From positions 1,308,705 through 1,372,704 of the forward strand of contig NZ_KI783301.1 in assembly GCF_000510645.1 (NCBI RefSeq): 64,000 nucleotides of DNA, in the 5' to 3' direction. This document shows, one piece after another, positions 885 through 8,380 of this stretch. Position 1 is the first letter of the stretch, and the number at the start of each line of letters is the position of its first letter. The translations under genes and the position numbers were made by a program. Origin of the DNA: Thermicanus aegyptius DSM 12793. GTDB taxonomy: Bacteria > Bacillota > Bacilli > Thermicanales > Thermicanaceae. Under the pieces are notes generated by a model. It saw only the letters and a program-made list of their open reading frames with translations, was not told the origin of the DNA and made no database searches.

Positions 885-920
885 AAAAGACCAAGGTTCT
901 AAGATGAATCTTGGTCTTTT
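885..920 (+). terminator. Terminator of hicBA
   Basis: Perfect 11-base arms AAAAGACCAAG (885-895) and CTTGGTCTTTT (910-920), followed by CATTTTT. The hairpin covers the only ATG (904) available to the next open frame, which casts doubt on that start. Confidence 0.8.
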
Positions 921-1767
921 CATTTTTAAAAAAAGGAGGAAACGGACAAAGGAACATCCGGACGAAATCAGTAAACCGAATTCTGATCCCTTTCTGCGCC
1001 TTTCGCTGCAAGAGCTTCTCTGGGCGTATTACAAAGGCCCCATTCCCGCCAGCCCTTATGAAAAAGAAGTGATGAATCGAATTGCCAAGTATAAATATGG
1101 AGTAGATTCTTGGGATCAGATTCCGAAAGCAAAAGTAACGAGGGATTTAGGATTGATGACCCAATGGTCCTTCGACTACGCCATTCTCCTCGACTATCAC
1201 TTCAACGAAGAAGGAAAACTGGACAGCTTCATCTTCCGCCCCATTGGACAGCGTTACGCATTCCGGGTCACCGTCAAAAATCCGATTGGAAGTTATGTGA
1301 ATAGCGCAGGATGGGCTGGTTTCAATGACGAAAAATTCAATGGAGTATTAAGCGAGATTGTTACTCCGGAAATTATGGAAGAGATCAAGAAATCAGGTGT
1401 GGTTATTGGCTTTTATTCCGGAACAGGAAGGGCGACCGGAGAGGTAGATACCCGCTTTACCCCGCCTTTTGTGATCTATTCCAATGACGATTTTAGCCTA
1501 AAGTATGTTGAAGTATACCGCTGGAATAACACGGATTATATGGTCAAGGAAATTCGTGGCGGAGGCGATTTTCAGTTTGCTGTTGGAGGCTACTCCACAG
1601 AAGAAAGCGACTATAGCCCCGGAAGCAAGATTCTGCCGGATTATTTCACCAAACGGAGAAGCTTTACACCCGGCAGCGAATGGAGACCCTGGACGAAGGA
1701 TGAAGCCGCTTGGATTCCACAAACGACGTATCAGGTGACAAGGTCATGGTACACCAAAAGCGAATAA
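904..1767 (+). CDS. Orphan protein, possibly N-terminally truncated
   Basis: I do not recognise the family. The frame encodes up to 287 residues, rich in aromatic amino acids and beta-type segments, without membrane spans or a signal peptide. A basic N-terminal run (KKRRKRTKE) is followed by a helical part and then a mixed domain with several W, Y and F residues. The nominal ATG lies inside the hicBA terminator. A good AAAGGAGG (931-937 region) follows it but has no start codon at a proper distance, so either the gene starts in an unusual way or its 5' end has been lost. It ends 17 bases before a strong terminator, which supports it having been a transcribed gene. Confidence 0.5.
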   Translation: MNLGLFIFKKRRKRTKEHPDEISKPNSDPFLRLSLQELLWAYYKGPIPASPYEKEVMNRIAKYKYGVDSWDQIPKAKVTRDLGLMTQWSFDYAILLDYHFNEEGKLDSFIFRPIGQRYAFRVTVKNPIGSYVNSAGWAGFNDEKFNGVLSEIVTPEIMEEIKKSGVVIGFYSGTGRATGEVDTRFTPPFVIYSNDDFSLKYVEVYRWNNTDYMVKEIRGGGDFQFAVGGYSTEESDYSPGSKILPDYFTKRRSFTPGSEWRPWTKDEAAWIPQTTYQVTRSWYTKSE

Positions 1768-1784: not shown

Positions 1785-1811
1785 GAGCCGTCCTATCGAC
1801 GGCTCCTTTTC
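1785..1811 (+). terminator. Intrinsic terminator split by the intron
   Basis: Arms GAGCCGTC (1785-1792) and GACGGCTC (1798-1805) followed by CTTTTC. The U-tract is interrupted at 1811/1812 by the group II intron and resumes as TTTTTG at 3707. It originally terminated the orphan gene at 904-1767. Confidence 0.85.
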
Positions 1812-3706
1812 GTGCGCCCAGCATGGGCGTTATCTTTAGGGTGAAAGTCCCGAACGGGGGCTGGCGAGCGCCTACCGTTAGCCAACAGCAAGGGTGTCCA
1901 TCGTGAGGTGGAATCTGGAGGAAGCTTACGGCAAACGCCCGGCCTAAGGTACACGAACCCAATTTGAGGCTGGAATAGTCGGATGAGCCTGCTAAACAAG
2001 GTAAAGTCCAAAGCCGCCAAGGGCTATTTCAGTAAACTTGGGTAGGCACATGGGCGGAAAGATAACGTCCTTACCTGGGGAGGCCTGCACGGAACGCCAT
2101 CTGCCGATGGTAACCGGGGTCGTAAGGTCCCGCTGAACGTGCAGGAGTCAGCAGAAGCCATAGTACGCAAATACGGGACGCCGGAAAGCGGAAGGGCTGA
2201 ACGTCAATTCAAGGATGAGTCAGAATCTTTCGAGACGCGATGTGTTGAATGCAGAATTCCGCAAGGAACTACTCCGGGGAAGTAAGAGTGAAGCTCTGAG
2301 GGCGCCGGAGAGGGCAGAGCATCGACCGGCAAGACCTGAATGTCATCCTGCGAAGGGAGAAGTATCAGTAATGGACTTGATGGAACAAATCCTATCACGG
2401 CAGAATCTGTTGGAAGCCCTACATCGGGTGGAATCCAACAAAGGTGCGGTAGGCATCGATGGAGTCTCGACCGAGCAACTCCGGGAATATGTCATGAAGC
2501 ACTGGGGGACGATTCGCCAGCAATTGCTGGAGGGAACCTACAAACCTTCTCCGGTTCGAAGGGTCGAAATCCCGAAACCCGACGGCGGAGTTCGGCTACT
2601 GGGCATCCCTACCGTGATTGACCGGTTGATTCAGCAAGCCATCCTTCAAGTCCTGACCCCCATCGTTGACCCGGGGTTTTCCCCCAACAGCTTTGGTTTT
2701 CGACCAAACCGCCGCGGCCATAGCGCAGTAAGACAAGCCCAACGGTTTATCCGCGAGGGATACCGTATTGTGGTAGATATCGACTTGGCACAATTCTTTG
2801 ACCGGGTGAATCATGACATCCTGATGAGTAGGGTAGCAAGGAAAATAAAAGACAAGCGAGTCTTGAAACTTATCCGGGCATACCTGCAATCAGGGGTTAT
2901 GACGGGTGGCGTCTGCGTGAGCAGTGAGGAAGGGACTCCACAAGGGGGACCACTCAGTCCGCTGCTTGGAAACATATTACTGGATGACTTGGACAAGGAA
3001 CTGGAACGCCGGGGATTGCGCTTCTGCAGATATGCAGACGACTGTAACATCTATGTGAAAACAAGGCGGGCAGGGGAACGGATCAAAGCGAGTGTCACGC
3101 GATTCTTGGAAGGAAGACTTAAAATCAAAGTAAATGAGGAGAAAAGCGCAGTAGACTGGCCCTGGAAACGGAAGTTCCTGGGGTTCAGCTTCACCTTTGA
3201 GAAGGAAGCGAGAATCCGACTAGCGCCCAAATCGCTAAAGCGGGTCAAGAACAAAATCAGGGAATTAACAACCCCAACATGGAGTATCTCGATGAAGGAA
3301 CGCATCCGGATACTCAATCAATATCTCATGGGGTGGATGGGATACTACGCACTCATCGAAACGCCCTCTATACTTAAGACGCTGGAACAATGGACCCGCA
3401 GAAGACTGCGGTTATGCCTATGGCACCAGTGGAAACGGGTTCGAACTAGAATCCGGGAGTTACGAGCCTTGGGCCTCCCTGAAAGACAAGTCCTCGAAAT
3501 CGCGAATACGCGAAAAGGCGCATGGCGCACCTCTCAAACTCCCCACTTACACAAAGCCCTCGGAATTGCCTATTGGCAGTCCCAAGGTCTCAAGAGTTTA
3601 ACCCAAAGATACAACGAGCTTCGTCAAGGTTGGCGAACCGCCTAGTGCGGAACCGCATGCTAGGTGGTGTGAGAGGACGGGGGTTAGCCGCCCCCTCCTA
3701 CTCGAT
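1812..3706 (+). mobile_element. Group IIC intron
   Basis: A complete intron of 1895 nt. The 5' end is GTGCG at 1812. The 5' ribozyme domains fill 1812 to about 2360, and the reverse transcriptase lies in domain IV. Domain V follows the ORF: ACCGCCTAG (about 3638) pairs with CTAGGTGGT (about 3660) around TGCGGAACCGCA. Domain VI follows from 3671 (GAGAGGACGGGGG, then CCGCCCCCTCC) and ends CTACTCGAT at 3706. Group IIC introns are known to insert just after the stem of intrinsic terminators, and this one sits in a terminator U-tract. Length, lack of an endonuclease domain in its protein and target choice all agree with class C. Confidence 0.93.
2371..3645 (+). CDS. ltrA: Group IIC intron reverse transcriptase/maturase
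   Basis: Multifunctional intron-encoded protein that helps the intron fold and splice and makes cDNA during mobility. Reverse transcriptase blocks are in order: VRRVEIPKPDGGVR, LLGIPTVIDRLIQQAI, FGFRPNRRGHSAV, GTPQGGPLSPLL and the catalytic YADD (within FCRYADDCN). A thumb/maturase domain follows (SISMKERIRILNQYLMGWMGYY, then the basic RRRLRLCLWHQWKRVRTRIR). It ends after the maturase part with no HNH endonuclease domain. From memory it is very close to the Geobacillus GsI-IIC enzyme. The frame is open to an ATG at 2215, but the ATG at 2371, with AGGGAGA upstream, gives a 424-residue protein matching the usual 420-residue length; the part before it would overlap ribozyme sequence. Confidence 0.93.
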   Translation: MDLMEQILSRQNLLEALHRVESNKGAVGIDGVSTEQLREYVMKHWGTIRQQLLEGTYKPSPVRRVEIPKPDGGVRLLGIPTVIDRLIQQAILQVLTPIVDPGFSPNSFGFRPNRRGHSAVRQAQRFIREGYRIVVDIDLAQFFDRVNHDILMSRVARKIKDKRVLKLIRAYLQSGVMTGGVCVSSEEGTPQGGPLSPLLGNILLDDLDKELERRGLRFCRYADDCNIYVKTRRAGERIKASVTRFLEGRLKIKVNEEKSAVDWPWKRKFLGFSFTFEKEARIRLAPKSLKRVKNKIRELTTPTWSISMKERIRILNQYLMGWMGYYALIETPSILKTLEQWTRRRLRLCLWHQWKRVRTRIRELRALGLPERQVLEIANTRKGAWRTSQTPHLHKALGIAYWQSQGLKSLTQRYNELRQGWRTA

Positions 3707-3734
3707 TTTTGATTCCAAGATAAGGAGGATGAAG

Positions 3735-3887
3735 ATGAATCCGATTTTGCGTCACAAACGATGGATAAGCGCCTCTTTGGTTTTGGCGCTTCTTTTATCC
3801 CTTCTTGCTGTCTTTCAGGTTTTTGGGGGTTATCTTGACGGCGGGAATATATTCGACATCAATCTCTCCAGCTATCCCAACCACTGA
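3735..3887 (+). CDS. Small exported or membrane peptide (50 aa)
   Basis: A strong AAGGAGG (3722-3728) precedes ATG 3735 by six bases (ATG 3729 is in frame but touches the ribosome binding site). The product has a basic N-terminus (NPILRHKRW), one hydrophobic segment at about residues 11-31 and a short polar tail rich in D, N and S ending SYPNH. This is the layout of a signal-peptide-bearing pro-peptide or a one-span membrane peptide. I know no homologue. Its 3' end lies in a nested inverted repeat. It was probably separated from its upstream neighbour by the intron. Confidence 0.6.
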   Translation: MNPILRHKRWISASLVLALLLSLLAVFQVFGGYLDGGNIFDINLSSYPNH

Positions 3888-8149: not shown

Positions 8150-8314
8150 TGCGCGGATGAGAGCAGAGGGAGAGAGCGCAGGTGGCGCCGCCGAAGAAGA
8201 AAGCCACGTTGGTGAAACTTTCAGGCAAAAGGATCTTTGCTTGACGCATCTCTGGAGAGTGCTTCCGCAGGAAGCCACCAAAGGAGGAACTCCGATAGGG
8301 AGGATACTCTCAGG
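8150..8314 (+). promoter_or_regulatory. Tandem glycine riboswitch
   Basis: Two glycine aptamers in a row before gcvT. The first contains GGAGAGAGCGCAGG, GCGCCGCCGAAGAAG and the end CAGGCAAAAGGAT (about 8233-8245). The second runs from CTCTGGAGAG (8250) to CTCTCAGGTAAAGGGACAG (8307-8325). The paired CAGGCAAAAGGA/CAGGTAAAGGGA signatures and spacing are those of the gcvT RNA class. In B. subtilis glycine binding turns the gcv operon on by preventing termination. Confidence 0.93.
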
Positions 8315-8355: not shown

Positions 8356-8380
8356 TTTGGGCAAAAATGGAGGTGTTGAG

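Follow-up and report, generated by a model that had tools for sequence, protein, structure and literature searches.

The window, a 64,000-nucleotide stretch of the Thermicanus aegyptius DSM 12793 genome, carries on its plus strand a terminator whose T-run is interrupted by an intron of 1895 nt (1812..3706). The 5' exon (1785..1811) consists of an 8-bp stem (GAGCCGTC at 1785-1792, GACGGCTC at 1798-1805), the loop CTATC (1793-1797) and the tail CTTTTC (1806-1811), which is the first half of the T-run; the fold energy is -14.4 kcal/mol. The second half, TTTT (3707..3710), forms the 3' exon. Upstream lies an open reading frame (904..1767) whose 480-aa paralog, a Cu_amine_oxidN1-domain protein, is encoded elsewhere in the genome; the window copy is truncated at its 5' end. 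Downstream is the 5' fragment of a paralogous gene (3728..3884), which ends early after about 50 codons. The insertion halved the T-run and damaged no gene.

Read directly from the sequence, the intron starts with GTGCGCCC, with GTGCG opening it at 1812, and ends with CCTACTCGAT, with CTACTCGAT closing it at 3706. Because the 5' exon and the intron end in C and T, respectively, and the intron and the 3' exon begin with G and T, the junctions cannot be shifted. Rfam models match a domain I segment (RF02001, group-II-D1D4-3; 1897..2069, 128.8 bits) and a D1-D4 segment (RF01998; 2111..2197, 61.8 bits). Domain V (3636..3669) carries a CGC triad at 3639-3641 and folds with a two-base bulge (-19.7 kcal/mol); domain VI and the 3' splice site (3670..3706) follow, as assigned from Rfam and the fold. 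The RF00029 match to domains V and VI (3636-3706) scores 41.7 bits, where the cut-off is 40, and its 3' limit is exactly 3706. A CGC triad is usual in class C domain V, and domain V of the window intron is class-C-like. Positions 1812-3706 (+) of the window are a full-length group IIC intron.

The intron-encoded protein (IEP; 2371..3645, start codon chosen by alignment to residue 1 of the GsI-IIC reverse transcriptase) has 424 aa, with reverse transcriptase (RT, PF00078) and maturase/X (PF08388) domains and an intact YADD motif. Pfam detected RVT_1 and GIIM only in these 424 aa, and no endonuclease domain was found. The protein scores 419.5 bits against the NCBIfam group_II_RT_mat equivalog (cut-off 300), and its best solved relative is the GsI-IIC RT (718.6 bits, 315/421 aligned residues identical, 75%). 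The preliminary description had called the element a group IIC intron bounded at 1812 and 3706, with a protein close to GsI-IIC. The Rfam and protein matches bear out the assignment, including the class C domain V, the 3' boundary agrees with the end of the DV/DVI match, and both boundaries agree with the empty site described below. As a separate observation, the IEP frame runs into domain V with its last codons and its stop, and about 10 bases (3636-3645) therefore serve both as coding sequence and as catalytic RNA.

The genome also contains a partial paralog of the locus that has no intron (L087; minus strand of G000:C1:2209116-2209982). It reads GAGCCGTC-CTATC-GACGGCTC-CTTTTC|TTTTGATTCC, uninterrupted. 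The DNA match to the window continues past the stop codon, covers the hairpin and ends with the last exon base, C1811; after the equivalent of this base the paralog continues with TTTTGATTCCAAG, the bases that follow 3706 in the window. Judged from the paralog, the target before insertion was hairpin-CTTTTC-TTTTGATT, a continuous terminator. Because the hairpin-CTTTTC-TTTTGATTCC is present without an intron, the empty site is an exact join of the two flanks, and the paralog fixes both intron boundaries to the base with no bases gained or lost. Transposon insertion with target duplication was rejected, as the paralog joins the flanks with neither duplicated nor missing bases. The uninvaded copy has diverged from the window (86% DNA identity) and is a paralog within one genome rather than the same locus in a sister strain; a search of sister genomes with the upstream gene for a same-locus empty site returned only distant matches to other, longer proteins. 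The placement of the insertion inside a terminator U-tract, a class C type of target, had been proposed from the sequence, and the paralog supports it. Two checks that might have overturned the proposal, one on the continuity of the uninvaded site and one on a class C domain V, both came out in its favour. The two loci form a base-exact filled/empty pair of one terminator within a single genome.

The genes around the two sites are well diverged. The upstream ORF and its paralog (G000:C1:2209158-2209982, minus strand) share 84% protein identity, and a codon comparison gives 182 codons alike, 47 silent differences and 41 residue changes. The window copy is a fragment in which the first third of the paralog's protein is absent. 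In the intron-free paralog, a different mobile gene, a 366-aa RRXRR/IscB-like ORF (L087:178-1278, minus strand; G000:C1 ~2207835-2208935), lies 24 nt behind the junction. It scores 172.5 bits in Pfam and 149.6 bits against NCBIfam IscB, under the cut-off of 175. Its flanks on both sides can form hairpins, and it occupies the ribosome-binding region of the gene that follows. Since the RRXRR part alone matches, this ORF may be of the HNH-less type, which we take to be IsrB. Two copies of one locus have been struck by two different elements within 25 bp.

Hairpin and tail are scored as terminator-like in both the window and the paralog. Such matches by themselves do not exceed shuffled sequence in this region (8 found, shuffle mean 6.0), so the argument leans instead on the empty site and on related introns. 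From the 203 relatives returned by a scan of genome contigs, the 80 best were taken further. The 5' RNA was matched in 72 of these loci, and in 54 of them, as well as in the window, the 5' end showed the start motif with sufficient exon for the junction to be placed. A stem scoring at least 6 stands directly before the junction in 49/55 cases, compared to 134/2200 control positions, and a stem scoring at least 8 in 39/55 compared to 13/2200; the controls come from the same loci, coding sequence included, and are not matched to intergenic gaps. By this measure six of the 55 junctions have no strong hairpin. A hairpin before the junction is far above chance across relatives. The shuffle result would fit a window hairpin that arose by chance as an inverted repeat, with the intron inserting for another reason, but the same layout of hairpin and T-run precedes the relatives and two remnants in this genome, and we give this explanation practically no weight.

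The first base of the 3' exon is T in 45/58 relatives with a located 3' end (58 of 60 hits taken in), as it is in the window. Only four of these 58 have a T-rich 3' exon start like that of the window (at least 4 T in 5). Insertion in the middle of a T-run, as in the window, is less usual than insertion at its end.

Alignment of domain I identified EBS1 as a 4-nt word of the Id3 loop, directly behind a conserved C in the Id3 stem, and this word covaries with the exon. EBS1/IBS1 words include GAAA-UUUC, CAAA-UUUG, UAAA-UUUA and ACAA-UUGU. One of the 55 introns (L035) has no EBS1 in register, leaving 54 for pairing counts. Among these, positions -1 to -4 are paired in 52, 52, 52 and 38 introns; means for permuted exons are 22.6, 32.1, 39.6 and 31.0, and out of 5000 permutations 0, 0, 0 and 18 reached the observed values. 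A large part of the 54 consists of copies within one genome, which are not independent. Counting one per distinct intron, -1 is paired in 37/38 and the window is the one unpaired, a mismatched Anoxybacillus copy having been merged into its matched siblings in this count. One genome (G032) holds two class C introns, L113 and L150, with EBS1 GAAA and AACA, each pairing with its own exon.

The -1 pair was also scored in two further sets, with the EBS1 register taken from a motif rather than from the domain I alignment. It is present in 21/24 and 16/18 introns, or 89/96 over the three sets. The first of these comprises 24 of 32 loci (L111-L142): five of the 32, together with the yardstick locus L018, repeat introns that had been counted before and were excluded, and L135 (no 5' exon), L142 (unparsable) and L141 (no row) fall outside the set. 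The second comprises 18 of 20 stretches. A different candidate for EBS1, GGAAAG at 2056-2061, which could pair with CUUUUC, was dropped because it is the Id3 loop word after GC that covaries with the exon.

The window intron is an exception to this pairing rule. Its EBS1 (TAAA, 1993..1996, plus strand, placed by alignment and pair counts) faces the IBS1 TTTC (1808..1811, plus strand, in the register set by covariation among the 54 introns), so that UAAA and UUUC form three of four pairs and the U of T1993 is unpaired with C1811 at -1. Only 7/96 introns are unpaired at this position, two of them with degenerate intron starts. A copy in Anoxybacillus sediminis is also mismatched at -1 and several others miss one of the four pairs; since these copies carry a mismatch, insertion, at least, can proceed with one. 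The -1 mismatch of the window could reflect a later mutation, a mismatch-tolerant insertion or an assembly error. Because two insertions lie at a -1 C, that of the window and that of a 93% identical remnant which stops before EBS1, a donor that once had G as the first base of EBS1 is suggested, with base 1993 later changed, probably from G to T. A Geobacillus jurassicus relative has GAAA on UUUC.

Since the -1 pair of EBS1-IBS1 is a C-U mismatch, efficient splicing is not a given and the window intron may splice poorly. The intron could even be a fossil that no longer splices or moves. The rarity of the mismatch among relatives, the truncated flanking genes and the presence of a single full copy beside several remnants would all fit this reading. 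Nevertheless, the 424-aa frame is open with its YADD motif, domain V folds with its bulge, domain I scores 128.8 bits, and the Anoxybacillus sediminis copy and several others also have an incomplete set of pairs; we regard a fossil as possible but rather unlikely.

A more speculative idea, which we consider doubtful, is that the intron is caught between two targets. It would have inserted with GAAA on UUUC and then acquired UAAA, and would now read UUUA while sitting at UUUC. If this is true, and if the hairpin permits splicing despite the mismatch, class C introns could switch target and keep their home. This would explain the many EBS1 words among introns 80-88% alike, as well as the two G032 copies with different EBS1 words that each fit their own site. 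With the filled/empty pair and a natural one-base mismatch at the key exon-recognition pair, the roles of hairpin and EBS1 in 5' splice-site choice could be told apart within a native intron.

The anatomy, the base-exact boundaries and the empty site were observed here, as were the EBS1-IBS1 rule and the preference for hairpins among relatives. With these, the element is almost certainly a retrotransposing intron of group IIC (class C), without an endonuclease, that reverse-spliced into the terminator T-run at C1811/T3707. For the course of insertion we draw on the known family, from which reverse splicing, fork priming and lariat splicing are taken. The lariat RNA, bound by its own reverse transcriptase, would have recognised a single-stranded form of the terminator hairpin. 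EBS1 in domain I would have read four bases of the T-run (IBS1), with one 3' exon base, T3707, serving as IBS3, for which no EBS3 was located. Reverse splicing between C1811 and T3707 would then have been followed by copying into DNA with a replication-fork primer. GC skew is positive throughout the window, which would place the intron on the lagging-strand template; PMC8919778 reports that class C introns prefer this template.

The preliminary description had also held that splicing would restore a full terminator. This is correct for the RNA sequence, as the ligated exons equal the terminator of the paralog, but not for termination itself. Intrinsic termination acts while polymerase stands on the T-run, and ligation comes once polymerase has passed. 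Splicing would rebuild the RNA sequence of the terminator, but polymerase has left the T-run by then, and a polymerase that is past the intron cannot be terminated in this way. The hairpin and CTTTTC remaining at the filled site are still scored as terminator-like; since this half-run is retained and termination precedes splicing, the host probably pays little for the insertion, and termination probably needs no service from splicing. That splicing matters to the host by rebuilding a working terminator is therefore very unlikely: the identity of the ligated exons with the intact paralog terminator speaks for it, but the order of events and the half-run speak against it, as does PMC8919778, which describes class C introns behind terminators as rarely transcribed.

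The endonuclease-less group IIC intron of the window adds a clean but ordinary example to a family that is well known, and the rule that places class C introns behind terminators is established. Such introns are expected directly behind a terminator hairpin or an attC site. GsI-IIC of Geobacillus stearothermophilus, the source of a well-known laboratory enzyme whose RT structure has been solved (6ar1, 6ar3, 7k9y), shares the RT/maturase layout without endonuclease, although the sequences differ and the likeness is drawn here from the RT protein rather than the intron RNA. The target of GsI-IIC is a hairpin and T-run. The nearest loci resemble the window intron both in their RNA and in their target. 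The class C introns of Geobacillus jurassicus (L018) and of two other Bacilli (G266 and G320) have IEPs 79-81% identical, 5' RNA up to 88% identical and the same target type. Their EBS1 words (GAAA, AAGA) are fully paired with the exon, unlike that of the window. The group IIC models B.h.I1, O.i.I1 and Ta.it.I1 are described in PMC4424553 and PMC7161350 as having an En-minus IEP, a IIC ribozyme and a terminator stem-loop target; by this description they resemble the window intron.

No intact copy other than the window intron was found in this genome. The Rfam domain V search of the genome gave a count of one, which is not a census, as it scored 150/354 candidates and missed the window's own domain V. 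Many identical copies were looked for and not found; besides the one full copy there are short remnants and, at 1111162 and 315263, two group II RT stretches that are less closely related. The order comprises six genomes, in which RT matches occur only in this genome and in G005 (best 69% over a part). In the 92 plasmid and five phage records with a match, none covered 80% of the query, giving no nearer copy, and IMG/VR yielded four loci, the best at 79%.

Class C 5' fragments stand behind hairpins, as judged by eye, at three sites of G000:C1: the 93% identical remnant, 163 nt of the same lineage behind a hairpin ending in TTTTTC (L097, 1099593-1099755), a 39-nt fragment behind a hairpin ending in TTTTT (L099, 134553-134591), and L100 (2582367-2582479). 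A further remnant of about 175 nt (L098, G000:C1:535167-535341; 77-80% identity) joins the first ~90 nt of the intron almost directly to DV/DVI; it is an ORF-less mini-element from which everything between has been lost, and one copy was found. In another genome (G222), a near relative (L167:101-271, 92%) is represented by 170 nt of its 5' part, broken off by what appears, by eye, to be an IS-type transposase gene. Elsewhere in the window, a glycine riboswitch (8157-8246, 65.2 bits) lies upstream of an ORF at 8357 whose translation reads as gcvT-like.
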